A DNA stretch of 64,000 nucleotides. Source: Lentisphaeria bacterium. Its GTDB lineage: Bacteria > Verrucomicrobiota > Lentisphaeria > Victivallales > UBA1829. The DNA is taken from the NCBI GenBank assembly GCA_017646015.1, contig JAGCNI010000010.1, positions 1-64,000 of the forward strand. Direction: 5' to 3'. Below, one piece after another: positions 11,945 to 44,981 of the stretch. A program made the position numbers and the translations under genes. The stretch's first letter is position 1; the number at the start of each line of letters is the position of its first letter. The notes below the pieces were generated by a model. That model searched no databases and had not been told where the DNA came from. It worked only from the letters and a program-made list of their open reading frames with translations.

Positions 11945-14299
11945 TTATTCTGCAGTTGCTTTTGTACTTTTTTCTTTCAGAAAAGAGAATCCGTATTCCC
12001 GTGAGAAAAGCATCAGTTCCCGTTCCTGCTCCGGTGTTGTCAGTGCGGGGATCACCACAAAGATCCGGTGTCTTTCTGTATGATTTTGTGCGGTTTCAGC
12101 CAGAACTGCGAAATAGCGGAAAAAGAGTTCTTTACCCAACAGAGCAATTTCATTTGTCGGAGGGATCAGAAGAATGGTATCATACACATCTTTCTGTAAC
12201 TCTTTCACCATTGCAGGTATTCCCTGCAGAAGACAGCTTTCTGCATTCGGTTTCTGAGGGGGAAAAACAATTCTTTTGACTGATTTCCGGTGTGGATATT
12301 TTTCAGACAGGATCGTTTCTATTTTCTGATTTCCGATGATCAGGAGCGAATCATTTTTCCATGCGGAGAGGATTTGCGGCAACTGCCAGCGTCGGATGTC
12401 CCGCAACTGCATTTTTTGAAGAACCAGCGAACAGGGAATACCGTCTTTATAAAAGCGGTCATAGTGTATATCCATTGCATCGTGGAGTTTCTGAACGGGG
12501 ATCAGGTGGATTTGTTTTTTTGCGATGATTGCTCCGGGAGCCAAAAGTTCCACTGAAAGGAGTGCGATCTTATCGCTGATTTTCCGGAGAGGAATTTGCA
12601 GACGTGTGAGTTGTGCCGGTTTCAGAGTGACGGGACGAGGCGGATCCGCTTTTTCTTTTCCATTCAGATATTCTGTTACACGCAAATACAAAGGAAGTTC
12701 CATGGGATAATCATTCCGGAGTATGATCTCTGCCTGAATGACTTTATCATTATAACAAACCGGGGGAACTTGCATATTCATGGATGCGACACCTTTGAGA
12801 ATGATCGGATTTCCAGGCTGATCGACAGATGGGAACGGGAAAAGATCTTTTCCGGAACGGATCCATGTTTCTGATTTTGAATCTGCGGTCAGAACAGCCA
12901 GTACATTTTTATGGGTAAGAGGCATTTTATTTTTGTCACACAGAGAAACATTGCCGGGTAGTTGGAGGTATTCCCATTGTCCATAGGTCTGTTTTCCTGT
13001 CATATAGTTCCCGACATAATCTCTGCGAATGAGAGGAAATGTTCGTCCGTCCTGCATTGTGATGGATTCGATTTTACATGGTGCAGCCGGAATGAACATG
13101 TTTTCATTCAGCGGGCTCCATGATTCTCCCGGTTTTTTGAGATGGATTTCCAAAGGCATCTGACTGTTGTGGCGAGCGTAATGGAATGAGAAAGGGAAAA
13201 CACCTTTTTCCAGCTGGATCTTGAATTGGATGGAATATTTTTTTCTCATATCCGGAACTTGTATTGGATTGAACATGTGAAATTTCACAGTTTTCTGATT
13301 GATTTTCATGATCCAGAGCGTATTTGTAACGACTCTGAATTCATATTCTCCGGGTGTTTCGATATTCAGATTTCCTGTATATCGGAGGACGGCACTTCCG
13401 CTTAAATCCAGTTCACGGCTGATGACGTTCACTTCCGAGGGGTAGAGGGGTCTTGGACTTCTTGCATTGAGACGTGCGGCAAAGTTGTTTACAATTTGTC
13501 CGAAGATCGTTTCCTCACGATTTTTTTTGAGTTGATTATTCCATTCCTGAATGTTACGTTCCCTGTTTCTGAGCCATGAATTTGCTTCGCTGCGGATCCT
13601 TGCTTCATAATAATGAAGATCCGGCAGGAATGATTTTGCCCAGGAGGATTGGAAGAGCCGCCATTCCCTGCCATTCTGCATGATTCTGCTCTGATAAAGC
13701 TGTACCCGGAAAGGGAGTTTGGTATTTTCTGTTTTCTGAGAAGCCACAGCTCCGGGATGAGTCGGGAGTATTTTTCCGGATGCAGGGGGGAGCAGATAGC
13801 GTGAATAGAGATAACGTTTCATATTGTTGTTCAAGTTATCATATTGAGTTTTATCCCGGCGGGAGAGATTATTTTTCTGGTGTTCCAGATAGAGTTGGAA
13901 ATTACCTCGGATACCTCCCCAGTAAGTGATTTCGCGCATGGTGAACATATCGGCGTCAGGGGATGTTCTGAGGATGGAATCACCCGTGTTGCGTGTATAG
14001 CCGCTGTAAATGTAAATTTCGCGTTCTTTTTCTGAATGAGGCAGCAGGATCGCGCGGCGTGAAAGATCCAGTTCGGGGATCAGTTCTGTTCCGTCCGGAA
14101 GAAATGCTTTTGCCATACCATTGAACGGCATCGGGAGAAGATACTGTTTGAGGAGCAGGGAAGCCGGTTGTTTATTTGTTGTTGCCGGCTGCCGGACTTT
14201 GATTCTGAATGAGGCATCCGGATCAGCCCATGGAACTGCAGCGAGGGCAAAATATGTCATGCTGAAAAACAGAAAAAAGATGCTGTATATTTTTTTCAT
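11945..14299 (-). CDS. Secreted PA14-like protein of unknown function
   Basis: 784 residues with a signal peptide (MKKIYSIFFLFFSMTYFALA). Residues ~285-390 look like a PA14-type beta barrel: SGSAVLRYTGNLNIETPGEY, then WIMKINQKTV and a GVFPFSFHY segment; PA14 domains bind carbohydrates. A later part (~480-640) looks like beta-sandwich repeats; the C-terminus resembles a Rossmann-like fold. I recognise no catalytic motif. Its ATG overlaps the stop of the upstream glycosidase (ATGA), with AGGAG in that gene's last codons, so the two are translationally coupled. It is the last gene of the operon starting at 19860, and its end faces the methyltransferase gene 12 bases away. Confidence 0.75.
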   Translation of the reverse strand: MKKIYSIFFLFFSMTYFALAAVPWADPDASFRIKVRQPATTNKQPASLLLKQYLLPMPFNGMAKAFLPDGTELIPELDLSRRAILLPHSEKEREIYIYSGYTRNTGDSILRTSPDADMFTMREITYWGGIRGNFQLYLEHQKNNLSRRDKTQYDNLNNNMKRYLYSRYLLPPASGKILPTHPGAVASQKTENTKLPFRVQLYQSRIMQNGREWRLFQSSWAKSFLPDLHYYEARIRSEANSWLRNRERNIQEWNNQLKKNREETIFGQIVNNFAARLNARSPRPLYPSEVNVISRELDLSGSAVLRYTGNLNIETPGEYEFRVVTNTLWIMKINQKTVKFHMFNPIQVPDMRKKYSIQFKIQLEKGVFPFSFHYARHNSQMPLEIHLKKPGESWSPLNENMFIPAAPCKIESITMQDGRTFPLIRRDYVGNYMTGKQTYGQWEYLQLPGNVSLCDKNKMPLTHKNVLAVLTADSKSETWIRSGKDLFPFPSVDQPGNPIILKGVASMNMQVPPVCYNDKVIQAEIILRNDYPMELPLYLRVTEYLNGKEKADPPRPVTLKPAQLTRLQIPLRKISDKIALLSVELLAPGAIIAKKQIHLIPVQKLHDAMDIHYDRFYKDGIPCSLVLQKMQLRDIRRWQLPQILSAWKNDSLLIIGNQKIETILSEKYPHRKSVKRIVFPPQKPNAESCLLQGIPAMVKELQKDVYDTILLIPPTNEIALLGKELFFRYFAVLAETAQNHTERHRIFVVIPALTTPEQERELMLFSREYGFSFLKEKSTKATAE

Positions 14300-16575
14300 T
14301 TGATTCTCCTGAGCTTGAATGCGATATCATCTTCAAAACCCGGAAGTTCGAGGAAATCAGTCAGGACCCTGTCTTCTGCAAGAATACAGTCACCGGAGAT
14401 CGTATCATAGAATTCCACTCTCCATTTACCGGGGACAAAATCGCCGGGGAGGAGCAGACGGATTTCCCGCCATGTATGCGGAGATAATGGATCATTTGTC
14501 CGGGGAGTCCAGTGGAACATCCGTTCTTTATGATAGACCCAGCCATTGAATTCATCTTTTCTTCTGATGCACATGGATTCAAATTCTCTCTCCCATGGGG
14601 GGACAGAATGGATGAGTCCTTTGTATCCTGGATGAAAGGTATTGAAGATTTGATCCGGGGGCGCAATCACTTTACATTCCAATGACTGATACATTGGATC
14701 GCGGAGATCCATATTTTTCAAAAATTTTGTAACCCCGTGGAAATGTTGGAGTCTGCCATCGGAAATCGCAAAATCGTGCCACCAGAGGAAAGGGAGTCCA
14801 GCCTGTTTTTTGAAGATTGCGCCCCACAAACCTGCATGAAGATCGCTTTCAAGGAGTCCGTTTCCTGAGCCGGAGGAGTGACCGCCGAATTCAGTGATCA
14901 AACGCGGTTTATTCAATTCAAACACTCCGCTCTGATAACGAAGCTGCTGTGTCATCGGGATCCGGTCCGATCGGTATGCGTCTCCCACAAGATGTGTTAC
15001 TTCCGGCAGCTGCCACAAACGGAGTTTTCCATTATTATTGTGGATATCGCCGCAGACATGTGTGGTGATCAGGTGTCGGACAGGAGTGAAACTCTGATAG
15101 TTTTTGATGATTTGTGAATGCCATGTATCGACCGTTTTATTGTGATAGGCAGGATAAAAACTGAAAACAAGATCGACTTCGCTCCAGAGTTCGATCGCAA
15201 AAATATTGGGATTCTGTCCATAACGGGCTGCGATATAACGGTTTCTGCGATACCAGAACTGTTTGTATTTTTCATTGGTGAAAAGATTTTCCGCAGAGGT
15301 GATAAAGCCCCCGTCCGCTTCGGCATAAGTGGAATGTTTATTGAATGGATTTTCATACCATTCCTGTGTTGCTCCGGCAGAAAATTTGCCGTGATTATCA
15401 AAAATCAGATTGATCAGGATGCCATATTTTTCAGCCATTTCAAATAATTTATCAAGCCGTGTCGCATTGGCAAGATTATAACGTCCTACGCCCATGTAAT
15501 CCAGACGTCTTGCGCTCCATTCCAAAGCGAATGTCCAGGATGCCATCCATACTTCAATGCAGTTGATCCCGGCGGCAGAACAGAGTTTGAAATATCGTTC
15601 ATAATCTTTCAACCCCATATCCGCCAACGGTGCAATGCGGAGTCTGGCTTCTGCCCGGTAATCTGTGTTGGAATGAATATTCAGACCGACAGGAAAGAAG
15701 AATTCGCCGTTTTCATATTCAAAATAATGGTGATTCTGTTTGGAGACCCGGACAACTCCCCGGACAGGTGCGGGCGTGATTTCAACGGTCTTCCATTCGC
15801 TTGAGACCGTTTCTTTTTTCTCTTTTACAATGATTCTGAATTGATGTTTTCCGGCTGTTTTCGGGAAATAACGCAGTTCCCAGTGAGGGAGACCTTCAGC
15901 CACCGCCCGTTCTTCAGTCATATTGTATTCCAGGTGGTGATCTTTGGTGAAGAATGCGGGGAAAATAACTTTTTTCTGATCGGGCGTCTGCCATTCACAA
16001 TCAACAGCGACTTCATCGGGATCGAACGGATTGAAATATTCCCGGGAAAGCTGAAATTTTACAGAAAATATTTTTCCCGCAGTTCCTTTTTCCGGAGCTG
16101 TGATGGTGGTGACAGCCAACGGGATTTTTTTTCTTATACCCTCATAGCGGAGATTGCGGACTTCGCCTTTGATCTCCATATTCTCTTCCTGACTCCAGAG
16201 CGAAAGACCATACTCAAAAACTGCTGAAGCGATCTGTGCATTCCAGCGTTCTCTATTGGAATAGGGATACCAATTCTGAGCACGGTCATCGATCCGGACC
16301 CGGAGTGTTTTCCAATTTTCTGTTTTGTCAAACGTCCATTCCTGACGGGATTGAAAGAGATTGCCGTCTTTATCTTTGACAATGACCGCCCCCTGAAGAG
16401 GTTTTTTTACATTCAGTTTGTAATCGAAAACCAGATATTCTGCCTCAAATGCTTTTTGTGATGGTTTGAATTTTTCCCGTGGCAGCGGGATTGCAGAAAT
16501 CACCTTGCCTGATATTCCCCAGACAGAAAACATCAGACATATCTGCAAAAGGATCAGAGGGAAAATGTATTTCAC
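14296..16575 (-). CDS. Secreted clan-A-like glycoside hydrolase with N-terminal beta-sandwich (DUF5060-like)
   Basis: About 759 residues starting at a GTG that overlaps the pseudopilin stop (GTGA), with AAGGA 5 bases upstream. Longer starts at 16593 or 16677 lack a ribosome site. Signal peptide ~1-22. Residues ~140-280 form a beta-sandwich resembling DUF5060, then the barrel begins at FEYENGEFFFPVGLNIH. Candidate acid/base Glu466 (IELWSEVDL) and nucleophile Glu562 (LITEFGG) are ~96 residues apart, the arrangement seen in retaining GH5-like clan A enzymes. The C-terminal ~100 residues are another beta domain. The exact GH family and substrate are not decidable here. Its place in a polysaccharide-synthase operon suggests action on the product or on bound glycan. 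Confidence 0.78.
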   Translation of the reverse strand: MKYIFPLILLQICLMFSVWGISGKVISAIPLPREKFKPSQKAFEAEYLVFDYKLNVKKPLQGAVIVKDKDGNLFQSRQEWTFDKTENWKTLRVRIDDRAQNWYPYSNRERWNAQIASAVFEYGLSLWSQEENMEIKGEVRNLRYEGIRKKIPLAVTTITAPEKGTAGKIFSVKFQLSREYFNPFDPDEVAVDCEWQTPDQKKVIFPAFFTKDHHLEYNMTEERAVAEGLPHWELRYFPKTAGKHQFRIIVKEKKETVSSEWKTVEITPAPVRGVVRVSKQNHHYFEYENGEFFFPVGLNIHSNTDYRAEARLRIAPLADMGLKDYERYFKLCSAAGINCIEVWMASWTFALEWSARRLDYMGVGRYNLANATRLDKLFEMAEKYGILINLIFDNHGKFSAGATQEWYENPFNKHSTYAEADGGFITSAENLFTNEKYKQFWYRRNRYIAARYGQNPNIFAIELWSEVDLVFSFYPAYHNKTVDTWHSQIIKNYQSFTPVRHLITTHVCGDIHNNNGKLRLWQLPEVTHLVGDAYRSDRIPMTQQLRYQSGVFELNKPRLITEFGGHSSGSGNGLLESDLHAGLWGAIFKKQAGLPFLWWHDFAISDGRLQHFHGVTKFLKNMDLRDPMYQSLECKVIAPPDQIFNTFHPGYKGLIHSVPPWEREFESMCIRRKDEFNGWVYHKERMFHWTPRTNDPLSPHTWREIRLLLPGDFVPGKWRVEFYDTISGDCILAEDRVLTDFLELPGFEDDIAFKLRRIK

Positions 16576-17255
16576 AATATTCCTTTCTCCCATTCCATGA
16601 CACTGCGGAAGATATTTCCGCTCCATGATACATTGATCATGGGTTCTTCTTTTCCTTTTTGCAAATGCCAGTAACAACGTACTGTCGGGAAGTATTGCAA
16701 GGCATCCCGGAACCGCTGATGCGGAGGATATTCATTGCGTTCATTCCGGAGCTGATTGTATTTGACTTCCGCCCAGGATCTGCCATCATTTTTCCAGGTG
16801 CAGAGGGCGTCGCTGAATTCATAGAAATAACTGACCTGCGCCACTTTGTCTGCCGGATCATCCTTATGTTCTTTTACATTCGGAAGATGTCCGTATTTGC
16901 CGACACTGCCGAAACGGTCGTATGCTTCAATAAATTTCGGTGTCGGTTCTGCGGTCCAGTCCTTGTATTCTCTGTCTGCCGGATTGGTATCCATGCCGCA
17001 ACGATACACTTTGGCGGAGGGCAGATAACTTTTATAAAGATCCGAAGTCCATGCCGGCATCCGGTCACGCCAGTCATCGCGATAGGTGATACAGGCAAGA
17101 CCGAGCTGTTTGAGATTGCTGATACAGTTCGTTTCCTTTGCTTTTTTCAGAACATTATTGATCGATGGCAGCAGCAAGCCCGCCAGAATCGCAATAATTG
17201 CGATCGTGACCAGTAACTCTATGAGTGTGAAAGATTTTTGTTTCAGATGTGTCAT
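16572..17255 (-). CDS. Type II secretion-style pseudopilin (prepilin N-terminal cleavage/methylation domain)
   Basis: 227 residues. The N-terminus is a textbook prepilin signal: basic leader MTHLKQKS, cleavage before Phe9, Glu at +5 (FTLIELLV), then a ~20-residue hydrophobic helix. The rest is the globular head of the Lentisphaerota/Planctomycetes xenologous pseudopilin group (SNLKQLGLA region). ATG 17255 is chosen because AAAGGATCC is 6 bases upstream; the longer frame to 17300 runs into the glycosyltransferase gene. Such pseudopilins are amplified in Lentisphaerota and often sit by carbohydrate-active enzymes; whether they assemble into a pilus is unknown. Confidence 0.9.
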   Translation of the reverse strand: MTHLKQKSFTLIELLVTIAIIAILAGLLLPSINNVLKKAKETNCISNLKQLGLACITYRDDWRDRMPAWTSDLYKSYLPSAKVYRCGMDTNPADREYKDWTAEPTPKFIEAYDRFGSVGKYGHLPNVKEHKDDPADKVAQVSYFYEFSDALCTWKNDGRSWAEVKYNQLRNERNEYPPHQRFRDALQYFPTVRCYWHLQKGKEEPMINVSWSGNIFRSVMEWEKGIL

Positions 17256-17271
17256 AATAATGGATCCTTTC

Positions 17272-18801
17272 TTATTTTTGAGAATCAGACTGTAACCCAT
17301 GTTTGGTTTTTTCCCAGTAAAACGGTTTATAAAACAACTGCAGAAAACCTTTCCACGCTGCGATCGACATGAACTGCCAATAGATAAACATCAACGGAGT
17401 GTAGAGGATCAAGTGCCAGTATTTCCGTTTGAAACATCCCAGCATCCCGATTGCCAGAAATACAAAATTGGCACAGAAGAGCAGGAAAGAGACAGATGCA
17501 AAAATCATGGAGAGGATCGAGTAAAGCATGCTTTCATCCGCTCCGAAATAGACCAGCGGCCATGCTTTCCAGAAAACTTCGGTATGAAGAAACATATTAT
17601 CCGTGGAAACAACGATTTGATCCATGACCGGTACTCCCTGAAGTGATCCCGCAAGAAGCAACGCACAATATCCCAACAGAAGCAACATGAAAATAATATT
17701 GCACAGAATCATCAGAGATCCTCCGCCAATGGCAAGAAATCCTCCGAATGAACCCCATAGCCCCAAGCGTCCAATCGTTGAAAACCAACTTCTGTAATGA
17801 ACCAGATGTGTCTGGAAAAATCCTTTGATCCAACGGGATCGCTGCCGGATCCAGTTGCCAAGCCGGGAATTGGCTTCTTCCCATGTGGTGCTGTCCAACA
17901 GCAGAGTTCGGTAACGGTTTTCATAGATCCGGATCCCGAGATCGCAATCTTCCGTTACATTGAACGAATCCCAGCCGCCGATCTGTTTCAGGATCTCTGT
18001 CCGGAAATGGTTGCTGGTTCCACCCAACGGCAGAGGAAAATTGAAAAGCTGCATTCCCGGCAGAATCAAATCAAAATGTGTGGTGTATTCGATCGTGAAT
18101 AATCTTGTCAGCAGATTCTGACGGGAGTTGTGATAATTCAGTTTCGCCTGCACACAAGCCACATCTTCCCGTCCTTCCCCGCGGAACATGCCGACTGCTT
18201 TTTTCAATTGATCCGGCTCCGGACGATCCTCCGCATCATAGATCACGCAGAATTCACCTCTGGCTTTTTCCAATCCATAATTACAGGCTCGCGGTTTGGT
18301 CTTCGGCAGACAGGGATCCATAACAAGGATTTCAAACTGTTCCGGCAGATTCAAAGACCGCATCGCCTCGATCGTTGCGGTGTCATCCTGTTCCAACAGA
18401 ATTTTTACATCCAGCCGTTCCAATGGATAATCGATCGCACGGATACGGTCAATCAACTGTTCTGCAATATTTGCTTCCTTATACATCGGCAGCAGAATCG
18501 TATAAATCGGCAGTTCACCTTCGGGAATATCAGCCCGTTCATAACGGAAGAAAAAGCCCGATACCGCTGCGACCAAGCGGAAAAATGCCGCCGAAAGATA
18601 TAAAAATGCAAGAAGGGCTGTCAGCAGAAAAATAAGAAGATCCCAACGGTAAAACAATAACAGAAGAGCCAGACAGAAAACAGTCAGATAAAATATTTTC
18701 TGTTTACCGGTAATCACAGCTGCCGCACATGTGCCGGGGTGCTTCCGGATAAATTCTGCGGAGAGACGGTCTGTATTCAAATGTTCAGCGGGGTCTTGCA
18801 T
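17272..18801 (-). CDS. Processive family 2 glycosyltransferase (CESA_like_2/XagB-like), membrane
   Basis: 509 residues. Two membrane helices at ~33-85, a cytoplasmic GT-A domain (~95-330), then four or so helices at the C-terminus. Key motifs are visible: LLPMYKE, the PRACNYGL...YDAEDRPEPDQL stretch typical of the XagB/CESA_like_2 group, TEDCDLG, and QRSRW (Q-x-x-R-W), the mark of processive synthases such as cellulose or hyaluronan synthase. It should polymerise a beta-linked polysaccharide and move it across the inner membrane. Its start overlaps the end of the parvulin gene by 17 bases, and 16 bases separate it from the pseudopilin. Confidence 0.87.
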   Translation of the reverse strand: MQDPAEHLNTDRLSAEFIRKHPGTCAAAVITGKQKIFYLTVFCLALLLLFYRWDLLIFLLTALLAFLYLSAAFFRLVAAVSGFFFRYERADIPEGELPIYTILLPMYKEANIAEQLIDRIRAIDYPLERLDVKILLEQDDTATIEAMRSLNLPEQFEILVMDPCLPKTKPRACNYGLEKARGEFCVIYDAEDRPEPDQLKKAVGMFRGEGREDVACVQAKLNYHNSRQNLLTRLFTIEYTTHFDLILPGMQLFNFPLPLGGTSNHFRTEILKQIGGWDSFNVTEDCDLGIRIYENRYRTLLLDSTTWEEANSRLGNWIRQRSRWIKGFFQTHLVHYRSWFSTIGRLGLWGSFGGFLAIGGGSLMILCNIIFMLLLLGYCALLLAGSLQGVPVMDQIVVSTDNMFLHTEVFWKAWPLVYFGADESMLYSILSMIFASVSFLLFCANFVFLAIGMLGCFKRKYWHLILYTPLMFIYWQFMSIAAWKGFLQLFYKPFYWEKTKHGLQSDSQK

Positions 18802-19860
18802 CAGCCGGGATTTCCATTTTGTATGCCTGATAATGGGGGATAGTCAGAAAGATCTGGACTTTATTTTTCTTCTTCAGGTCAGCGACCAATTGTTCCAATC
18901 GTTTCTGAGCCTCCTGACGTTTCAGCATGTCGGTGATTCCTGCTTTGACTTCATGATACGCATATTTTCGTGCGGGAGTCCGGGCTTCACAGAGAACGAT
19001 GTGAAAAGCGGTATGGGATTCAAGCGGATCAGAAATTGTTCCTGCTTTCATGGAAAAAACGGTTTTTTCCACATTTTTATGAAGCATATTCCGTTCGACA
19101 ATGCCCAGTTTCCCTCCTTTTGTGCGGGATGGACAATCACTTTCTTTTGCGGCAACAGCAGCAAATGATTTCGGATTTTTTTTGACTGCAGCGGCAACTT
19201 TTCTTGCTTTTTGCAGAGCTGCTTCACGAGTTTCTTTTTTTCTCGGGTCGAATAAAAAACGGATATGCGAGATCGTGGCTGTTTCCGGTACATTGAAACG
19301 GGTATTGTTTTTGTGATAATAGTCGCTGATCTGTTTTTCTGCGATCTGGATTTTTGCAGTGTACTCTTTTTCAAAAAATTCAAATGCAGCGACTTGATCC
19401 TGAATTTCCGGATCGGCAGCTTTCTGACTGATCCAGTCTTCGATCGTCTTTTTATTTCTCTGCAAGCGCGCTTCAAGCAATGCTTTTTCATCCGGCGTCA
19501 ATTTCTGTACCTGGTTGTGGTAAAAAGTTGTGACCTGTGTGGCAGAGGGAAGGACTTTCTTTGTTTTCAGATATTCTTTGATCAAGAGATCAATGATCAT
19601 CTGTTCCGCCTGAACTGCCAAGACATACGGAGCCGTTTTCTGATTCAGATTTCCCGGGATTTTTCCTTTGGGAAGTTGACGCATCAGATAACTGTAAAAT
19701 TCATTCTGATCAATTGTTTTTCCATTGATCGTTGCAACTTTTGCCGGAATCAATGCCTTCAATTCTGCCGGAGTACACGGTTTGACTGTCTGTGCATACG
19801 CATTGCAGGCAAAAAGAAAAATGCCGGAAAGAGGCAGAGAGCAATGATTTTATTCCACAT
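18785..19860 (-). CDS. Parvulin-type peptidyl-prolyl isomerase (PpiC/SurA-like), frameshifted in the signal peptide
   Basis: A SurA/PrsA-like chaperone: an N-terminal helical region, then a parvulin domain (ATISHIRFLF, KESDCPSRTKGGKLG, FHIVLCEAR). As it stands the main frame opens only at a TTG (19762) lacking a ribosome site and a signal. Upstream in the other frame is ATG 19860 with a proper AGGAGTGG, encoding MWNKIIALCLF, and the main frame directly continues as SGIFLFACNAYA-Q, an excellent signal peptide tail. One extra T in the TTT at 19828-19830 joins the two. So the gene either carries a one-base deletion, a read error, or needs -1 slippage. It heads the operon that runs to 11945. Confidence 0.8.
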
Positions 19861-19919
19861 ATTCTGACCACTCCTGAAAGGTATATTCTATCTTATTTTG
19901 TCTGATTTTTATTGTTGAC

Positions 19920-19948
19920 TTAATAAAAATGAAACAAAATCTTAACAA
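19920..19948 (-). promoter_or_regulatory. Candidate promoter for the parvulin-GT2 operon
   Basis: Minus strand TTGTTA (19948-19943), 17-bp spacer, TATTAA (19925-19920), 60 bases before the ATG at 19860. The hexamers are only moderate matches in an AT-rich stretch. Confidence 0.4.
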
Positions 19949-20108
19949 TTATATTGAGGTAATATAGTGTTTTTTGGAGAGATTGTCAAGCTGGATAATC
20001 AAATTTTATTGAAAAAATATCTGCCGGATTCAAGGAGAGTCCGTGGCAGTGTTTCCGGAAAAATTTTTAAAAAGATGTATCATTTGTATCATGTTTTTTG
20101 ATTTTCTC

Positions 20109-20137
20109 TTGCAATCTCCGGCTTGATGGTGTATGTT
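20109..20137 (+). promoter_or_regulatory. Promoter for the EI24-Pmp3 operon
   Basis: TTGCAA (20109-20114), 17-bp spacer, TATGTT (20132-20137), 42 bases before the start at 20179. Its presence argues against the longer reading frame that begins at 20098. Confidence 0.55.
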
Positions 20138-20178
20138 ACGTTTTCAGAGAGGAAAATATACGGATTCTGGAGGAGAGG

Positions 20179-20922
20179 ATGTTTGCTGATCTGACACGGG
20201 GAGTGCATTATCTGATAGAAGGGATCCGTCTTTTTTACACTGACCGTTCCCTCTGGAAATATGCGTTGATTCCGATGGCAATGACGTTGTTGGTGTATCT
20301 CTTTTTTATGCGGATCCTCTGGTGGTACGGTTCACTGTTGCTTGGATGGCTCCGGGAGATGGTATTGGTGTTGCCGTCATGGGCAGCTTTTGCCGGTGAT
20401 TTTTTCACAGGAACAGTGATGTTGATATTTATTCTTGTTGCGGCATTGGTCATCATGGGAACAGCCGGATCATTATATGAAATATTCGGAGGACTCTTTT
20501 TTGACAGTATGGTGGAGCGTTTTGAGCGCAAACATTTTGGGTATCATGCTGTTCCGCCGGCAAAGAAAGATCTATTCTGTTTCTGGCGGGACTCTCTCTG
20601 CTGGGGGACAGGTACGCTTTTGCTGATTCCGCTGATGCTGTTGACGGCGCTGCTGATTCCGTTTTTCGGGAAAGTTCTGCTGGTGATCGTGCTCGGTTAC
20701 AGAGTGGGAATATCCAGTCTGTTCTGTGCCGCTTTCTGTCACCGGCAGGAGGTACGGAAACTGAGGAGGGATATTGGCAGCCGACAGAAATTTATGGTGA
20801 TTCTCGGTTTCGGTGTGATGCTTTATCTGCTGACACTGATTCCATTTTTATCCATCATCGTTCTGCCTGGTGCAGTTCTGGGTGGTTCATTACTTTATAA
20901 TAAGGAATTGAAAGGAGATTGA
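20179..20922 (+). CDS. EI24 domain membrane protein (CysZ-like)
   Basis: 247 residues with the EI24/CysZ pattern: GVHYLIEGIRLFYTDRSLWKY ahead of the first helix, then about four to five membrane segments, the pair GTAGSLYEIFGGLFFDSM and a final hydrophobic stretch. CysZ takes up sulfate in gamma-proteobacteria; distant homologues are just called EI24 and have no assigned cargo. No cys genes are nearby. The start at 20179 follows GGAGGAG. Two small Pmp3 genes follow at spacing of 2 bases each. Confidence 0.8.
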   Translation: MFADLTRGVHYLIEGIRLFYTDRSLWKYALIPMAMTLLVYLFFMRILWWYGSLLLGWLREMVLVLPSWAAFAGDFFTGTVMLIFILVAALVIMGTAGSLYEIFGGLFFDSMVERFERKHFGYHAVPPAKKDLFCFWRDSLCWGTGTLLLIPLMLLTALLIPFFGKVLLVIVLGYRVGISSLFCAAFCHRQEVRKLRRDIGSRQKFMVILGFGVMLYLLTLIPFLSIIVLPGAVLGGSLLYNKELKGD

Positions 20923-20924
20923 AA

Positions 20925-21107
20925 ATGAATACGGATATTCTGTTACGCATTTTACTGTGCATAATTTTTCCGCCGCTTGCGGTGTTTGACCGTGGATGCG
21001 GAATGATGATTTTTATTTTTCTGCTGACATGTCTCGGCTGGCTGCCGGGAACGATCGTGGCTTTGATCGTTTGTATTACCGATAATAAAAGTAGAATAGG
21101 AGAGTGA
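20925..21107 (+). CDS. YqaE/Pmp3 family small membrane protein, copy 1
   Basis: 60 residues, two hydrophobic helices, with the family signature FPPLAVFDRGCG and a LGWLPGTIVAL second helix. Pmp3/YqaE (UPF0057) proteolipids affect membrane potential and stress tolerance in plants, yeast and bacteria. AAAGGAG lies 7 bases before the ATG, which starts 2 bases after the EI24 stop; the TTG at 20919 is rejected. Confidence 0.88.
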   Translation: MNTDILLRILLCIIFPPLAVFDRGCGMMIFIFLLTCLGWLPGTIVALIVCITDNKSRIGE

Positions 21108-21109
21108 AT

Positions 21110-21304
21110 ATGGGAACGCAATACAACAGTACGGAATTGATCATCAGAGTTTTGTTGGCAATCCTTTTTCCGCCGCTTGCGGTATTTGACAAGGGCTGCG
21201 GGAGTATGCTGCTGGTTTTTCTGTTTACAGTGTTCGGCTGGCTGCCGGGAACCATTTTGGCTGTTTTGCTGTGCATGAGAGATCAACAAAAGTTTGAGAA
21301 TTGA
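21110..21304 (+). CDS. YqaE/Pmp3 family small membrane protein, copy 2
   Basis: 64 residues, same two-helix fold as the preceding gene (FPPLAVFDKGCG, FGWLPGTILAV). The two copies share the core but differ at the N-terminus, so this looks like an old tandem duplication. GGAG is 7 bases upstream of ATG 21110, which is 2 bases after the previous stop. Confidence 0.88.
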   Translation: MGTQYNSTELIIRVLLAILFPPLAVFDKGCGSMLLVFLFTVFGWLPGTILAVLLCMRDQQKFEN

Positions 21305-21329
21305 ATTTGTTGAATCCCCGGTGTAACAG

Positions 21330-22688
21330 ATGCGTGTAAAACTGATTCTTCCGGCACTTCAGGAGGCGGCAGGAAAATTTTTCCGTCCGATAAAATATTC
21401 TCTGTTTCCGCCTCTTGGATTGGCGCAGCTTGCTGCATATCTGGATCCGGCAGATGAAATCCGGATACTGGATCAACATGTGGAAGAGGATGATTTTTCA
21501 GATTCTCCGGATCTGGTTGTGATCCAGACCTATATAACCAATGCCCGGCGGGCGTATGCCATTGCTGATTCCTACCGATCACGCAGGATCTATGTTGTGA
21601 TGGGCGGGCTTCATGCGACATCTCTTCCGGAGGAGGCTCTGGCGCATGCAGATACTGTTATTACCGGACCGGCGCATGAGGCGTGGCAGATTTTTCTCCG
21701 GAAATTCCGCAGAGGCGAGCCTTGCCGCGGGATCATACGGGATCCAGTCCGTACTCTTGCATCTCTTCCGTTTCCCCGCCGTGATTTGATCTGCCGGAAA
21801 CATTATCTGGTTCCGAACAGTATTGTTGTTTCAAGAGGATGTCCCTCTCAATGCGAATTCTGTTATACCAGGAATTTTTTTGCCGGAGGGACTTCTTTTT
21901 ATACGGAGCCTGTTGACCGGGCTCTTGCTGAGATCGAAACATTGCCGGGACGGCATTTATTTTTTCTGGATGATAATCTTTTCGGTTCATCCTCTTTTTC
22001 CAGAGCGTTGTTTGAGGGGATGCGCGGGATGAAACGCCGTTTTCAGGGAGCTGCCACCACTGCCGGAGTTTTGAATCGGGAATTGGTCCGGAAAGCGGCG
22101 GATGCGGGATTGAAAAGTCTGTTCATCGGCTTTGAGTCTTTGAATCCTGCCTCGTTGCTTGCCTGCAGGAAAACACAGAACCGGATCGAAGAATATAACA
22201 CGGTTGTGAAGATCCTCCGGGATCACGGAATCATGACCAATGCCAGCTTTGTATTCGGTCTTCCCGGCGATGATGCCGATGTATTTGACCGGACTGTTGA
22301 TTGGGCGGTGAGTCAGGGGATCGAGACCGCCACATTTCATTTGGCAACACCTTATCCGGGAACGCCTTTTTTTGAAAAGATGGAACGGGAGGGACGTTTA
22401 TTGACCCGTGATTGGGATTTGTATGATACGCGTCATGCCGTGATCCGTCATGATCATTTGACTCCGGCGCAGTTGGAAGAAGGCTATTGGCGGAGTTATG
22501 AGCGTTTTTACCGTTGGCGCAGTATTTTCCGTGGCGCGGGAGTGAAAAATCACTTTTCCGGAAAAATGCGTCATATTTTTTATACCGGAGCGTGGAAAAA
22601 AATCGATCCGTTATGGCATTGTCTGATCCGGCTCCGTTCTCTTCCATGTTGTTCCCGCATATTGGAAAAAGTCCTGGATATGGCTTGA
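21330..22688 (+). CDS. B12-binding domain radical SAM protein
   Basis: 452 residues. The N-terminal ~140 residues form the cobalamin-binding fold seen in this class (LILPALQ, PPLGLAQLAAYL, VVMGGLHATSLPEEAL). The radical SAM cluster motif C-x3-C-x2-C is at Cys171, Cys175 and Cys178 (SRGCPSQCEFCYT), followed by HLFFLDDN and the TTAGVLN and FGLPGDD segments of the Elp3-like barrel. These enzymes methylate or rearrange unactivated carbons or take part in hopanoid, bacteriochlorophyll and natural product paths; nothing around it fixes the substrate. The spacing from the second Pmp3 gene is 25 bases. Its 3' end is 7 bases from the convergent DUF3089 gene. Confidence 0.85.
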   Translation: MRVKLILPALQEAAGKFFRPIKYSLFPPLGLAQLAAYLDPADEIRILDQHVEEDDFSDSPDLVVIQTYITNARRAYAIADSYRSRRIYVVMGGLHATSLPEEALAHADTVITGPAHEAWQIFLRKFRRGEPCRGIIRDPVRTLASLPFPRRDLICRKHYLVPNSIVVSRGCPSQCEFCYTRNFFAGGTSFYTEPVDRALAEIETLPGRHLFFLDDNLFGSSSFSRALFEGMRGMKRRFQGAATTAGVLNRELVRKAADAGLKSLFIGFESLNPASLLACRKTQNRIEEYNTVVKILRDHGIMTNASFVFGLPGDDADVFDRTVDWAVSQGIETATFHLATPYPGTPFFEKMEREGRLLTRDWDLYDTRHAVIRHDHLTPAQLEEGYWRSYERFYRWRSIFRGAGVKNHFSGKMRHIFYTGAWKKIDPLWHCLIRLRSLPCCSRILEKVLDMA

Positions 22689-23738: not shown

Positions 23739-24509
23739 TCATAATTTAATAAATAGTAATGCGATCAGGTTGTATAACCCGTGAATGAACATAGCAATCC
23801 CGAAAAAGATCCATGTACGTTGGATCTCACATGGTTTTCCGATTTTACGGAAATGCTGCCAGACCCGTTGCAGGCTTAAGGTGGAAATCAAAGTACAGCA
23901 AATATGCAAGAGTGTGCAGTATTTCCAACGGAAAGCCATGATACGCTGCAATCTTTCTGCCGGGATTTCCGGGGTAGTCAAGTAAGATTGATAAACAAGA
24001 TTTTCCAGTGTTGCAAAAATCCCGGCACTCAAAAATGCAACCAGAATGAACTGCCAACGGTATTTGACAAGCCAGGGGCGTTTTTCCAACATCCAGATCA
24101 TCCCGGATTGTTTCATGATCTCTTCCACCAGTGGGGCGGCAATAACCGCCGCAAGGATTCCCCATACGGAAAAATTATTTTGCAGCAATGTTCCGATCAC
24201 AGAAAAAATCCCGCCTGCGATTCCGCTCAATAAGGTTACGCTGAGAACCTTGTGAAATGGTGCGGCATTTGTTTTTTCCGAGAGCCATTTCCCGTATGCC
24301 GTTTCTCCGTTCTGACGTAAGCCCGCCGGATTGTAGGGTTCAGCGATCACTGAAAGATTGAGCTTTTCCGCTTCCTCCTGATTGACCGGATGCCACGGAT
24401 AGTTTGTCTTTTCTGATTTCTCTTTTTTTGCCAGTTCCGGGTGAACGGCAACTTCGGCATTGATTGAAAAGAGATCTTTATATTTCTTCTGATCCATCTT
24501 CTGTAACAT
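23739..24509 (-). CDS. PrsW-like intramembrane metalloprotease
   Basis: 256 residues; about 90 soluble residues then five to six membrane helices. The catalytic-type signatures of the PrsW/CPBP group are visible: APLVEEIMK (E-E-x-x-K), FATLENLVY (F-x-x-x-E-N) and MFIHGLYN (H-x-x-x-N) in successive helices. In Bacillus PrsW cuts the anti-sigma factor RsiW. No anti-sigma gene is adjacent, so the substrate is unknown. It overlaps the end of the membrane YbjQ gene by 20-32 bases. ATG 24497 is an alternative start. Confidence 0.72.
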   Translation of the reverse strand: MLQKMDQKKYKDLFSINAEVAVHPELAKKEKSEKTNYPWHPVNQEEAEKLNLSVIAEPYNPAGLRQNGETAYGKWLSEKTNAAPFHKVLSVTLLSGIAGGIFSVIGTLLQNNFSVWGILAAVIAAPLVEEIMKQSGMIWMLEKRPWLVKYRWQFILVAFLSAGIFATLENLVYQSYLTTPEIPAERLQRIMAFRWKYCTLLHICCTLISTLSLQRVWQHFRKIGKPCEIQRTWIFFGIAMFIHGLYNLIALLFIKL

Positions 24510-24993
24510 CCATAACTGCTGTGCCGTAAACGATCATCTCGATCCCTCCGGTTTGTTTGCTGCCCTGAGAGACATTATTGATCGTGATTGTTTCGCAACG
24601 GACATTATAAACATGAGTTGCACCTGCGGCAATCGCTTTTTTCAGCATCCGGACTGTTGCGATCCTGCGTGCATCATCGGCGAATTTGGTATAAGATTTC
24701 ATCTCTCCGCCGAAGATAGAGCGGAAACCGGAAAGAAAAGCCGCAAAGTAATCGTTGGCAATGACCACTGTTCCTGTGACTAAGACAGGATTCCGGAATT
24801 TTCTGCCGGATGGAAATGTTTTCAGGTTGTTGTATGAGATATTTTCCTTGCAGAACTGTTCATCCTCTTCAAGTGTCCTTCTGCGTTTCCGTTGAATGAG
24901 GGAATGAGTTGCCCACGCAATCAGAAGCACCCATAACGGCAAGAGTTCTATAAAGATTTTGAGAATCAGAATACTGAGGGGGTCGGGAGGCAT
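24478..24993 (-). CDS. Membrane-anchored YbjQ-family protein (UPF0145)
   Basis: 171 residues: a single membrane helix near the N-terminus (~8-30), a basic stop-transfer KRKRRR region, then a YbjQ domain (GEMKSYTKFADDARRIATVRMLKKA, ATHVYNVRCETI, YGTAV). The preceding gene encodes a soluble paralogue. YbjQ proteins form oligomeric rings of unknown role. Twenty bases separate it from the upstream gene. Confidence 0.82.
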   Translation of the reverse strand: MPPDPLSILILKIFIELLPLWVLLIAWATHSLIQRKRRRTLEEDEQFCKENISYNNLKTFPSGRKFRNPVLVTGTVVIANDYFAAFLSGFRSIFGGEMKSYTKFADDARRIATVRMLKKAIAAGATHVYNVRCETITINNVSQGSKQTGGIEMIVYGTAVMDVTEDGSEEI

Positions 24994-25013
24994 AATGATG
25001 ATCCTTTTCTCTT

Positions 25014-25340
25014 TCAGTTTTCCTCATCTTCGATCACGACTGCCGTGCCGTAAGCATAAAGTTCCGCTGCGCCTGCAGTGATACTGCTTGTAGCAAAACG
25101 GACATTGATCACGGCATTGGCTCCGAGTTCTTCCGCCTGTGAGATCATGCGTGCCAGAGCTTCCCGTCTGGATTCGATCAGGAGTTCTGTATAACCTTTG
25201 AGTTCTCCGCCAACCAGATTTTTGAAAGAGGCTGCAATGTCTCTGCCGACATGTTTTGCCCGAACTGTATTGCCCTGAACAAGTGCTTTGACTTCAATGA
25301 TTTTTTTTCCGGGAACGGTTTCAGTGTTGACGATCAGCAT
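25014..25340 (-). CDS. YbjQ family protein (UPF0145, heavy-metal-binding domain)
   Basis: 108 residues, full length for the family, with VPGKKIIEVKALVQGN, GRDI, GGELKGYTELLIESRREAL, LGANAVINVRF and YGTAV. The fold is a small alpha/beta protein that assembles into rings; it has been annotated as metal-binding on thin evidence. AAAGGAG is 8 bases from the ATG. It is the first gene of a four-gene operon behind the consensus promoter at 25385-25413. Confidence 0.9.
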   Translation of the reverse strand: MLIVNTETVPGKKIIEVKALVQGNTVRAKHVGRDIAASFKNLVGGELKGYTELLIESRREALARMISQAEELGANAVINVRFATSSITAGAAELYAYGTAVVIEDEEN

Positions 25341-40309: not shown

Positions 40310-40999
40310 TCAGCTTTTTTCTGTATCTGTATTACTGAAATGACAAATATTGCAGTGACGGCAATCCAATTCCTGTGGAAGATCATAGATCTTTCCGGCT
40401 TTTTCACATTTTTTCCGGTTATACAGATTCATCGCCGCAAGGATGAAGCCCATTACAATAAATCCGCCGGGTGCCTGTCCCATAACTGAAAAACCATATT
40501 CCCAGCCGGGGATCAGTTTGATCTGAAAAATCGTTCCCGCTGCAAGAAATTCGCGAATCATCCCGATCACAGTCAGTGCCAGTGTGAAGCCGAGACCCAT
40601 TCCGAGCCCGTCCAATGCAGAATAAAAAATCCCGTTTTTGGAAGCAAAGGCTTCGGCGCGTCCGAGCACAATACAGTTCACTACGATCAGAGGAATAAAA
40701 ATTCCGAGTGCGTTATACAGTGCTTCGGTATATGCCTGCATCACCAGATCCACTACGGTCACAAAGGTGGCAATCACAACAATGTAACAGGGGATCCGGA
40801 TCTTTGATGGCACAATATTCCGGATCAGTGAGATCGCTATATTGCTGCACAGAAGTACAAAGGTCGTTGCCAGCCCCATTCCCAAGCCGTTCGTTGCACT
40901 GGATGATGTCGCCAGAGAGGGACACATTCCCAGAGAAAGAACCAATACCGGATTCTCTTTCCATATCCCTTTGAAAAATTCGTTTGATGCTTTACTCAT
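40310..40999 (-). CDS. rnfE: Rnf electron transport complex subunit E
   Basis: 229 residues, about six membrane helices, with NPVLVLSLGMCPSLATSSSATNG near the N-terminus (conserved in RnfA/RnfE and NqrD/E) and AYTEALYNALGIFIPLIVVNCIVLGRAEAF. RnfA and RnfE face each other and cradle a [2Fe-2S]-type centre through such Cys residues. The C-terminus carries an extra tail with Cys213, Cys216 and Cys219 (CRHCNIC). The ATG overlaps the RnfG stop. Confidence 0.92.
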   Translation of the reverse strand: MSKASNEFFKGIWKENPVLVLSLGMCPSLATSSSATNGLGMGLATTFVLLCSNIAISLIRNIVPSKIRIPCYIVVIATFVTVVDLVMQAYTEALYNALGIFIPLIVVNCIVLGRAEAFASKNGIFYSALDGLGMGLGFTLALTVIGMIREFLAAGTIFQIKLIPGWEYGFSVMGQAPGGFIVMGFILAAMNLYNRKKCEKAGKIYDLPQELDCRHCNICHFSNTDTEKS

Positions 41000-41688
41000 T
41001 TGCTGACCTCCTGAATTTTTCCGGTCAATGCCTGGCGGTTGGCTTCAAAGGTGGATGCCGCTTTCCAGGCAAGTTGGTTGACCGCTTTGGATGAAATCGT
41101 TGCTCCTGATATATATTCCGCCTGTCCGCCGTCCTTTGTCAGCTTCCAGGGCTTTTTCCATGAATCAGACGTTCCCGCAGAGTGTCCGTTGTATTGATCC
41201 AGAATCTTGTTCGGGGGAAGTCCGGATCGTTTCGTTTCTTTCCGGAAAAGTGAGACAAGAGTTTTTTCTTCCTGCCGATCCATTGCATTGGAGCCGAGAC
41301 CGGGTGTTTCGGCATGTCCGGTAATGATAAAGGTGCGGATCGAACCATCCGGATGGAATGAAATCAGACCGTCCACATTTCCGCCATAACCGCTGTTGAC
41401 AGAAACTTTTGCGGCGAATCCAGTGATCTTTCCATTTTTTCGTGCAGTGTAGAACAGGATCTTCTGATTTTTATCAGTCTGATCTGCAAATGTATGAGTT
41501 TCAGCCATGGGATCATTGTCAAAATCCGGCAGGATCTGACGGAGTCCCTGTGCCACTTTGCGGACTTTGGCTTTTTCGATCGGTTTCTGGGTCATGATTG
41601 CAGCATATCCCATGATCGCTGCGGCAAAAGCACAGACAATGCAGAGAAATATTCCCAGATAAAACATGTTGCTTGTGTTTTTATTCAT
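40996..41688 (-). CDS. rnfG: Rnf electron transport complex subunit G
   Basis: 230 residues: N-terminal membrane helix (~10-32) and a periplasmic/extracytoplasmic FMN domain. The covalent flavin attachment motif is present as YISGATISS, with the acceptor Thr197. Also seen: GYGGNVDGLI and the HAETPGLG sequence (H-x-E-T-P-G-L-G), hallmarks of RnfG/NqrC. The ATG overlaps the RnfD stop, with GGGAG before it. Confidence 0.93.
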   Translation of the reverse strand: MNKNTSNMFYLGIFLCIVCAFAAAIMGYAAIMTQKPIEKAKVRKVAQGLRQILPDFDNDPMAETHTFADQTDKNQKILFYTARKNGKITGFAAKVSVNSGYGGNVDGLISFHPDGSIRTFIITGHAETPGLGSNAMDRQEEKTLVSLFRKETKRSGLPPNKILDQYNGHSAGTSDSWKKPWKLTKDGGQAEYISGATISSKAVNQLAWKAASTFEANRQALTGKIQEVSK

Positions 41689-42773
41689 TTGATTTCTCCC
41701 CGTCGCGGCTGGAAGGTTCCGGCAGGCGGATTCCAACCGAATGGACGTTTATAACAGAGTTTGTCGATCAGAGGAACAAGTGCATTCATGATCACAATGG
41801 CAAAACTCATTCCTTCCGGATAGGAGCCCCAGATACGGATGACACAGACAATGATCCCGATCCCGGCTCCGAAAACGATTTTTCCGAGATTTGTGACCGG
41901 ACTTGTTACGTAATCTGTTGCCATGAAGAAAGCTCCGATCATTACTCCGCCTGTGAGCAGATGAAACATCGGTCCGGGCGTTGTTCCGGGAGAGATACCG
42001 TTGACGATCCAGATGAAGATCGTAATTGTTGCCAGAATCGCCACCGGGATATAAAGACGGATGATCCCGAGGTAAACCAGACCCGCCGCTCCGATCAGAA
42101 TTGCCAACGTACTGGTTTCACCGAGACAGCCGCCGATATTTCCGAGAAAAGCATTCCAGAGAAATTCATTGGAATTGAAGATCGCCAGTTGCGTATTCGC
42201 CGCCGCAGTGGGAGTTGCAGAGGTTACAGCGGAAAATTCTGCCGCAGCAGACAGCGGAGTTGCGGAGGTGACTCCATCAAAGTGATGAAAGGCTGAGGGC
42301 AGAGGTGCCCAGGTCGTCATGGGTTTGGTCGCACCGATCAGAAGAGCCACACGGGCAACGGCTGCAGGGGTGAATGGATTTTGTCCCAATCCACCGAAAA
42401 CTTCTTTGGCAATGATGATGGCGATGAATGCACCAATCAGACAGAGCCACCACGGAATCAGCGGACTCAGATTCAAGGCAAGGATCAATCCTGTCACCAG
42501 TGCACTGAAATCTTTACAGGTATGCGGTGTTTTGGCGATCTTGCACCAGAGATATTCCATCCCGACACAGAAGATCATACACAGCAGGATCACCCGCAGC
42601 GCATTCCATCCATAGAACCAGATAGAAGCTGCTACGACCGGCAGCAGACAGAGCAATACCTGAAGCATGATCCTGGAGGTCGTCATGCTTGTCCGTATGT
42701 GCGGAGAAGAACTCAGGATCAGAGATCCTTCCTGAAGAAATTCTTTTTCCGGAACTGAATTTTTTTCATCCAT
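41685..42773 (-). CDS. rnfD: Rnf electron transport complex subunit D
   Basis: 362 residues with about nine to ten membrane helices. The covalent FMN site lies in DGVTSATPL (Thr172 as probable acceptor), and FGGLGQNPFTPAAVARVAL and GGVMIGAFFMATDYVTSPVT are the family signatures. RnfD sits at the core of ion translocation. The sequence between the two signatures includes an Ala/Thr-rich segment where lengths vary between species. RnfC precedes it by 18 bases. Confidence 0.93.
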   Translation of the reverse strand: MDEKNSVPEKEFLQEGSLILSSSPHIRTSMTTSRIMLQVLLCLLPVVAASIWFYGWNALRVILLCMIFCVGMEYLWCKIAKTPHTCKDFSALVTGLILALNLSPLIPWWLCLIGAFIAIIIAKEVFGGLGQNPFTPAAVARVALLIGATKPMTTWAPLPSAFHHFDGVTSATPLSAAAEFSAVTSATPTAAANTQLAIFNSNEFLWNAFLGNIGGCLGETSTLAILIGAAGLVYLGIIRLYIPVAILATITIFIWIVNGISPGTTPGPMFHLLTGGVMIGAFFMATDYVTSPVTNLGKIVFGAGIGIIVCVIRIWGSYPEGMSFAIVIMNALVPLIDKLCYKRPFGWNPPAGTFQPRRGEIK

Positions 42774-42791
42774 TTTTATGTTTCCTGTTTG

Positions 42792-44135
42792 TTATTTGTT
42801 TTTGCGTCTTTTCTCATTGATTTCCGCTTTGGCTCTGCGGAAATGTTGAACGTTGGGGCGTCCCGCCGGGCAGACATAAGTACAGATCCCGCACTCAAGA
42901 CAGCTTAATACATAATTTTCTTCCGCCAGATCATAGCGTTCATTTTCGCAGACTTTACTCAGTGTGCTGACCAGCAAACGCATCGGACAGGCATCGACAC
43001 AACGTCCGCAACTCAGACAGGGTCCTGCCTCAAACTGACGTACTTCATCGTTTGCAAGGAAAAGGATCCCGGATGTATTTTTGGAAACAGAAACTTTCAG
43101 GGATGACTGTGCAAATCCCATCATCGGTCCGCCGAGGATCAATTTGCCAACGGGTGACTGCAAGCCTCCCGCAGCTTCCAATGCTTTTTCCACCGGCGTG
43201 CCGAGACGCAAATGGAAGTTGCCAGTATCTTTGACTGGCGTTCCTGTGACTGTTACGATACGTTCGATCAGCGGACGACCTTCTGTTACAGCATCGGCGA
43301 TCGCTTTGAGGGTCCCTACGTTCTGAACCACACATCCAACGTCCATCGGCAAACCTCCGGCAACAACTTTCCGTCCGGTCAGGGCATAGATGAGTTGTTT
43401 TTCTCCGCCTTGCGGATAACGGACATGCAGGGGAATGATCTGTATATTTCTGTTTCTTTTTGCTTTTCTGCGGAGAATATTGATCGCATCGGGCTTGTTT
43501 TCTTCGATCCCGATCACAATATGAGAGATCCTCAGGATCTTGGCACAGATTTCAGCACCGGTGAGAACCTGTTCCGGATATTCACGCATGAGACGGTCAT
43601 CCGCTGTCAGATAGGGTTCACATTCTGCGCCGTTGATCACGAGAGTGTCAATGATTTTTTCCGGCGGAGGGGATAACTTTGCATGAGTCGGGAAAGCGGC
43701 TCCGCCCATTCCGACGATCCCTGCTTCCCGGACACGTTCCAGAAGAAGTTCTCTGTTCTGATCCCGCCAGTTGGGATATGGCGTCATTGGTTCGCACCAT
43801 TCATCTTTGCCGTCGGAAATGATTTCAACCGCCTGAACCGGAGCTCCATTCGCACCGGGGATCTCCAGAATTTCTCCGATCGTTCCGCTGGTGGGAGCAT
43901 GGAGAGGAACAGAAACAAAACCTCCGGCATCCGCAATTTTCTGTCCTTTCAGAACTGTATCGCCTTTCTGGACGTTCAATTTCGGCGGAGCTCCGATGTT
44001 CTGCTGGATGACCAGAGTATATTTATCCAACAGAGGAATATTGCGGATCAATCCGGCAGCAGAAAGTTCTTTATGATCTGCAGGATGGATCCCCCCTTCA
44101 AAATGTTTCGGATGTATCGGCATATTATTTTTCAT
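42792..44135 (-). CDS. rnfC: Rnf electron transport complex subunit C (NADH-linked)
   Basis: 447 residues. N-terminal barrel/biotinyl-like region, NADH/FMN-binding domain with GIVGMGGAAFPTHAKL, VINGAECEPYLTADDRLM, GIEENKPDA, then SLBB-like and two ferredoxin clusters CLSCGRCVDACP and CLECGICTYVCP. RnfC is the cytoplasmic NADH:flavin entry/exit point. It begins at ATG 44135, which overlaps the RnfB stop; the reading frame extends much further upstream but that part is out of frame with rnfB and has no ribosome site. Confidence 0.93.
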   Translation of the reverse strand: MKNNMPIHPKHFEGGIHPADHKELSAAGLIRNIPLLDKYTLVIQQNIGAPPKLNVQKGDTVLKGQKIADAGGFVSVPLHAPTSGTIGEILEIPGANGAPVQAVEIISDGKDEWCEPMTPYPNWRDQNRELLLERVREAGIVGMGGAAFPTHAKLSPPPEKIIDTLVINGAECEPYLTADDRLMREYPEQVLTGAEICAKILRISHIVIGIEENKPDAINILRRKAKRNRNIQIIPLHVRYPQGGEKQLIYALTGRKVVAGGLPMDVGCVVQNVGTLKAIADAVTEGRPLIERIVTVTGTPVKDTGNFHLRLGTPVEKALEAAGGLQSPVGKLILGGPMMGFAQSSLKVSVSKNTSGILFLANDEVRQFEAGPCLSCGRCVDACPMRLLVSTLSKVCENERYDLAEENYVLSCLECGICTYVCPAGRPNVQHFRRAKAEINEKRRKNK

Positions 44136-44962
44136 GCTGCACCTTCTTTCCCGCTGTTGGCGGCTGTATGATGTGCAACCGTATCCAACGCTCCGGTCGG
44201 ACAGGCTATTTCTCTGATTGTTTCTTCTGTAAGATTTGAATCTTCCGTGACCCGGACAAGGAATCCCTGAGCATTGAATGAATCCGGTACGGCGCGGACA
44301 CATTTCTTACATGCGATACATGCTGCTTCACATGCTTTCCGTTTGACCGGACCTTTTTCGAGGGAGTTGCAATAGACATGGATTTTGGAAGTTGCGGGTA
44401 CAAGGCGGATGAGTTTTCGCGGGCAGATATCAATACAGTTTCCGCAACCTTCGCAAAGTTCCGGATGAACGATCGCAAGCCCGTTTCTGATTTCAATGGC
44501 ACCGAACTGACAGCGTCTTGCACAGGAGCCGAGACCGATACAGCCGAAACGGCATGTTTTACCGCCACCGGAAAGAGCGGCAGCCGCGCGACAGTCATTG
44601 AGACCATTGTAACGGGCAAGACGTTTGGCTTTATGATTGTCACCGGAACAATAGACCACGGCGACTTGTTTTTCTCTGTTGCCCGCTTCCTTGCCGAGAA
44701 TTTCAGCGATTTTTTTGAAATTTTCCTCAGAACAGGCACTGCATGATGAGATATTCGCATCATTTTCCACGATTTCTTTTGCAAAATCAGCGCATCCGGC
44801 ATATCCGCATCCGCCGCAATTTGCACCGGGGAGAAGTTCGGTGATCTCTTCAATACGGGGATCTGCTTCCACGGCAAAACGTTTGGCTGTATATCCGATC
44901 AATATTCCGAGAACCAGACCCAGAAGTGCCAGAACCGCAGCTGCTATAAGGATATTTGTCAT
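44132..44962 (-). CDS. rnfB: Rnf electron transport complex subunit B (ferredoxin-linked)
   Basis: 276 residues: N-terminal membrane helix (~3-25), the Fe-S domain GANCGGCGYAGCADFA, then a Cys-rich part (CRFGCIGLGSCARRC), a full ferredoxin cluster CEGCGNCIDICP, and a last cluster C-I-A-C-K-K-C whose usual fourth Cys is Val225. RnfB takes electrons from reduced ferredoxin. Start ATG 44962 has AGGAGATATG-type spacing upstream. Confidence 0.92.
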   Translation of the reverse strand: MTNILIAAAVLALLGLVLGILIGYTAKRFAVEADPRIEEITELLPGANCGGCGYAGCADFAKEIVENDANISSCSACSEENFKKIAEILGKEAGNREKQVAVVYCSGDNHKAKRLARYNGLNDCRAAAALSGGGKTCRFGCIGLGSCARRCQFGAIEIRNGLAIVHPELCEGCGNCIDICPRKLIRLVPATSKIHVYCNSLEKGPVKRKACEAACIACKKCVRAVPDSFNAQGFLVRVTEDSNLTEETIREIACPTGALDTVAHHTAANSGKEGAA

Positions 44963-44981
44963 AGTTTCATATCTCCTGTTT

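Follow-up and report, generated by a model that had tools for sequence, protein, structure and literature searches.

The DNA analyzed here (hereafter, the window) comprises the first 64,000 nucleotides (nt) of contig JAGCNI010000010.1 of a Lentisphaeria bacterium (assembly GCA_017646015.1), and its minus strand carries a gene for a parvulin-type protein, a member of the peptidyl-prolyl isomerase (PPIase) enzymes, whose coding frame and N-terminal leader are read one base apart. The original prediction interpreted this arrangement as a single signal peptide split by a one-base frameshift. We describe the two frames, their homologues and their genomic setting, and weigh the explanations that could account for the break.

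The parvulin frame and the leader frame

The parvulin frame opens after a TAA at 19852–19850, runs uninterrupted for 354 codons and ends at a stop at 18787–18785. Its first codons read NHCSLPLSGIFLFACNAYAQTVKPCTPAELKA..., with no ATG, GTG or TTG upstream of TTG 19762, and AGGA, GGAG and GAGG are absent from the bases just upstream of that TTG, as expected from the earlier description of a frame lacking a proper start and a TTG lacking a ribosome site. The same frame contains a hydrophobic segment that ends in what, by eye, is an AYA-Q cleavage motif; as assembled, it has no in-frame signal peptide, since TTG 19762 lies after that segment. Non-standard starts at CTG 19837 and ATT 19822 were considered for this frame and dropped because neither has a ribosome site at a usable distance.

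The parvulin assignment comes from a nearly complete PPIC-type domain, which scored 82.4 bits against a cut-off of 21.7, and from three residues (His166, Cys210 and His254, numbered from TTG 19762) that are invariant in all 27 proteins when the window protein is aligned with 26 members of the 62-locus homologue set described below. We take these residues to be catalytic by analogy with Pin1. The domain and the conserved His/Cys/His set predict that the product is a parvulin-type PPIase with isomerase activity. By sequence, the nearest solved chains were 5ez1 and 6bhf (HP_0175), 3rfw (Cell-binding factor 2) and 2jzv (PrsA), with E-values from 1e-11 to 9e-10. Eight NCBIfam families were matched, all eight below cut-off (a PrsA model, for example, reached 35.6 of 343 bits), so that the protein receives no equivalog name.

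The leader frame can be read directly from the sequence. The minus-strand ATG at 19860, which the original prediction named as the opening of a leader, is present and is preceded 10 nt upstream by AGGAG (19875–19871) and about 100 nt upstream by a near-consensus sigma-70-like promoter, TTGACA-17-TATATT. From this ATG the frame encodes MWNKIIALCLFPAFFFLPAMRMHRQSNRVLRQN, 33 codons with a hydrophobic segment, and then meets a TGA at 19761–19759. The number of promoter-like sites in the region is at chance level (three between 18700 and 20300 against a shuffle mean of 2.9), so what counts in the argument from the promoter is how well this one site matches and where it lies. Coordinates are collected in Table 1.

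Table 1. Features of the parvulin locus and its downstream neighbor.
Feature	Positions	Strand	Basis and remarks
Sigma-70-like promoter, TTGACA-17-TATATT	19961..19989	-	11 of 12 matches; best of 3 sites in 18700-20300
Ribosome-binding site, AGGAG	19871..19875	-	Sequence; 10 nt 5' of the ATG
Leader frame: ATG, hydrophobic segment, 33 codons, TGA	19759..19860	-	Sequence, codon table, start scan
Parvulin frame; first ATG/GTG/TTG is TTG 19762	18785..19849	-	Open reading frame (ORF) list, translation
T-rich stretch where reading must pass from leader to parvulin frame	19807..19830	-	Codon table, run scan
Signal-peptide h/c-region in parvulin frame, SGIFLFACNAYA then Q	19793..19828	-	Cleavage site assigned by eye
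PPIC-type PPIase domain, PF00639	18986..19267	-	Profile 1-96 of 97; E 4.9e-23
Family 2 glycosyltransferase (GT2)	17272..18801	-	ORF list, Pfam, homologues; ATG inside parvulin 3' end

Starts of this kind are uncommon. A crude test for a Shine–Dalgarno (SD)-like site followed by an ATG and a signal-peptide-like peptide returned only 12 cases on both strands of the window; the frames that they open are at least 227 amino acids long in eight cases and short in four, of which ATG 19860 is one. Counting the three other short cases per 128 kb of strand, we estimate the chance of such a leader start falling within about 100 nt of the parvulin 5' end at about 0.002. The leader frame by itself also passes the crude signal-peptide test; because T-rich DNA encodes hydrophobic residues whichever frame is read, that test alone is no proof that leader and parvulin belong together. 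The case for one split gene, which we regard as well supported by the sequence, is carried instead by the coincidence of a promoter, an SD site and an enzyme that lacks a signal. It is further supported by the signal-peptide end in the parvulin frame, which would be purposeless unless joined to the leader.

Export of homologues and the position of the break

A search of the order found parvulin matches in 103 of 137 genomes, and the homologue set consists of the 62 loci that were fetched (L003–L046 and L059–L076) rather than of all matches. Sixty of them gave a tblastn match, at only about 20–32% identity and with no close orthologue among them; two further parvulin-like genes of the same genome (L005, L008) are in the set, as are some distant paralogues (L006–L008). 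In all 60, the N-terminus lies in the frame of the match, and 59 passed a crude signal-peptide or lipobox test in that frame. The remaining homologue (L068) has an N-terminal membrane segment, L059 passes the test but is also anchor-like, and in the two loci without a tblastn match (L020, L032) leaders were visible when the sequences were read. The test is lenient, taking the best of all candidate starts, and none of seven cytosolic-type genes from the window, each tried from a single fixed start, passed it.

These homologues bear directly on the suggestion in the original prediction that the protein might start at the TTG and stay in the cytoplasm, a natural form for which homologues lacking a signal peptide would have argued. 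TTG 19762 is indeed the first ATG, GTG or TTG in frame, and a protein started there retains the region aligned to homologues. Such a protein would, however, be unlike all 60 homologues tested, which pass the crude export test or, in one case, have a membrane anchor, and so make a native cytosolic form unlikely; it would also lack a ribosome site, offer no explanation for the signal-peptide end that precedes the TTG in frame, and ignore a promoter and SD site positioned for ATG 19860. We therefore consider a natural cytosolic parvulin highly improbable.

Where the frames part is less sharply defined. Both are open over 19849–19762, and a crossing anywhere from about 19830 to 19807 yields a leader. 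The candidate runs are T3 at 19830–19828, which is present as originally described, and T5 at 19821–19817 and at 19815–19811, the two longest T runs of the leader. Codon log-odds summed by hand for crossings at 19830, 19812 and 19806 gave about 7.1, 8.7 and 9.8 bits, so that crossings farther down beat the T3 run by about 1.6 to 2.7 bits, a difference too small to decide the matter. Thus the one-base split within the signal peptide is borne out, while its placement at 19828–19830 gives way to a broader interval in which, judging from codon usage, the two T5 runs appear at least as likely a break point as the T3 run.

Because both frames are open, and hydrophobic in the T-rich part, many crossings would give a usable leader, and programmed -1 ribosomal frameshifting or transcriptional slippage might join leader and body and set the amount of exported foldase. 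No X XXY YYZ heptamer occurs in the overlap, however, and the best three sites keep only four of six pairing positions; CTC TTT C, the slippage site originally put forward, is outside the six best near-matches listed and has no stable fold downstream. RNA folds around and downstream of the overlap were no better than shuffles (z of +0.88, +0.21 and +1.28, in a model that excludes pseudoknots), and such a break occurred in none of the 60 tested homologues, all of them distant. Transcriptional slippage usually needs T runs of eight or more, and the T5 runs are short. Programmed recoding is accordingly very unlikely in our view, and we give marginally less credence still to a break that is native and fixed in the species, with slippage in the TTTTTCTTTTT stretch letting a small fraction of ribosomes or transcripts yield exported foldase. 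If true, a native and bypassed break would represent an unusual form of dosage control for a secretion foldase, and recoding would amount to a non-canonical switch dosing a secretion chaperone; nothing that we found points there.

Frameshift frequency, relatives and genomic setting

An alternative to a real break is an error of sequencing or assembly, the organism's own gene being continuous and ordinary. The assembly is a draft of 137 contigs that is 78.8% complete, the T-rich stretch holds two T5 runs, and the gene body is intact with a complete domain, all of which fit an error. To gauge its plausibility, we scanned 360 kb for frame switches, made up of the window and 20 further stretches of its genome, with 325 kb called coding. 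The scan returned 93 switches, five of them without an ATG or an SD-preceded start within 150 nt, which is a weak filter. Of the artificial mid-gene deletions, all 16 placed in genes of the window were found; when the control was made stricter, with 150 deletions at random mid-gene positions, 116 were detected and 94 were flagged as unlike a gene junction. The stricter filter flagged 12 of the 93 real switches and left 81 outside the flagged set. Reading by eye covered the 12, which all proved to be gene ends, junctions or a contig edge, as judged with the help of presumed protein names.

No clear frameshift inside another gene was found among the places read in the 360 kb; at 63% sensitivity, this zero is compatible with up to about 1.5 frameshifts per 100 kb. 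Runs of five or more A or T are common (507 in the window), yet no Pfam family was split between neighboring ORFs among the 41 with a match; of the 55 window ORFs of at least 80 codons, 52 were scanned against Pfam and 11 had no match. In-gene indels in this assembly are rare. An error of sequencing or assembly alone is a reading that we hold tentatively, and as the less probable one, although well ahead of recoding or a cytosolic form.

Close relatives might have settled the N-terminus. In searches of the family, order and class, every listed match other than the gene itself had 36% identity or less, and among plasmids only distant parvulins appeared, with 24–25% identity among the five matches listed of 19 records. 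The GT2 gene, which on the basis of the overlap is probably co-transcribed with the parvulin gene, has full-length homologues at 51–60% identity in the order, and no parvulin match was found in their flanks (up to 1.5 kb) at the 11 loci checked, so that gene order supplies no orthologue either. Compared with the drafts of two genus mates (91% and 85% complete), the parvulin gave weak matches only (31%) and GT2 none at 1e-40; the protein at 14299–16677 matched at 28% over part of its length, the radical SAM protein at 27% or not at all, and the EI24-like protein at 37% or not at all. Genes further out, at 11, 29 and 60 kb, match the genus mates at up to 63%, 76% and 86%. From these patterns, the parvulin gene is probably part of an accessory block, for which horizontal acquisition is possible. 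The best matches of parvulin and GT2 fall in another family (f8), which prompted us to consider a misbinned or foreign contig; we rejected this because an EPSP synthase (86%) and a Dus protein (76%) match the genus mates best.

The probable block, at 14296–22688 (approximately 14–22.7 kb), contains the parvulin, GT2, the protein at 14299–16677, the EI24-like protein and the radical SAM protein. The protein at 14299–16677 has a weak DUF5060 match below cut-off and is possibly a glycoside hydrolase; in three other genomes (L048, L053 and L057), an ORF resembling it by eye lies upstream of GT2 on the opposite strand, and the two genes may travel together without the parvulin. In the window, a gene at 16572–17300, between GT2 and the protein at 14299–16677, encodes a pseudopilin-like protein whose N-terminus bears a methylation motif (PF07963). 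Elsewhere in the window are a closely packed Rnf-type cluster at 40310–45698 (RnfC-like, RnfD-like, two Rnf-Nqr subunits, FMN-binding and Fe-S proteins) and two adjoining YbjQ-family (PF01906) proteins at 24478–25340, of which the one at 24481–24993 has an N-terminal extension that by eye resembles a membrane segment.

A proposed broken signal peptide and its known counterparts

The locus holds two frames, start signals in sequence and an intact gene body, and its homologues are exported. We propose that it is an exported parvulin foldase gene whose signal-peptide codons carry a one-base break, and that it is accessory and either broken or mis-assembled; we consider this reading very probable, and the start signals, the frames and the exported homologues lend good support to interpreting the arrangement as a single split signal peptide. 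The gene would encode an exported foldase of the PrsA/SurA/CBF2-like kind, with a transcript that would begin just 3' of the promoter at 19989–19961 and ribosomes that would begin at ATG 19860. Loss of one base from the T-rich signal-peptide codons by an ordinary indel would put the leader out of frame, and ribosomes would halt 33 codons in, leaving the cell with little exported enzyme or none. The uninterrupted frame, the complete PPIase domain and the invariant residues, presumably catalytic, imply that the break is either recent or not real. Loss of the product could be borne, given the accessory setting and the two other parvulin-like genes of the genome (C4, C95), which pass the export test. 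Within this reading, we give about even odds to a genuine break, either a null allele of recent origin or a sampled population that mixes strains, and favor it over an error of the local consensus or the assembly.

Several observations weigh against a broken gene. No lesion beyond the single frame break was found in the parvulin gene, which fits a recent break but would equally fit a working gene. Contig scans by peptide patterns or exact flanking DNA found no copy from the same species, and the genus mates are drafts, so that accessory status is not proven. The rarity of in-gene indels lowers the prior for an assembly error and for a real break alike, and the frame-switch scan is insensitive in the first codons of genes and did not flag the parvulin break itself.

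The locus also carries a caution for annotation, as a gene caller limited to ATG, GTG and TTG would place the start at TTG 19762 or deeper in the frame, hiding an export signal that lies one frame away. Keyword searches of the literature for phase-variable homopolymers in signal peptides and for indel errors in assembled metagenomes found no paper combining all the terms. Three known systems offer points of comparison. As in E. coli copA/CopZ, one product here would require a change of frame by the ribosome; frameshifting in copA is described as depending on the nascent chain together with a slippery site and a pseudoknot (PMC7558416), whereas our search here found neither a slippery heptamer nor a stable fold, pseudoknots lying outside the fold model. 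The exported foldases PrsA, SurA and CBF2-HP_0175 differ in that the gene here, as assembled, has no in-frame signal peptide and scores far below the NCBIfam equivalog cut-offs. They resemble it in carrying a PPIC domain within a longer chain, with homologues here that are exported or lipid-anchored by the crude test, and PrsA2 proteins are described as lipoproteins with a signal peptide (PMC6288519). Comparable cases are known. The oipA gene of Helicobacter pylori has a hypermutable CT repeat, whereas the longest run in the leader here is T5 and no second strain was found in which on and off states might be seen; the likeness to oipA phase variation lies in a frame change within signal-peptide codons, which in H. 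pylori turns the exported protein off (PMC10564699).
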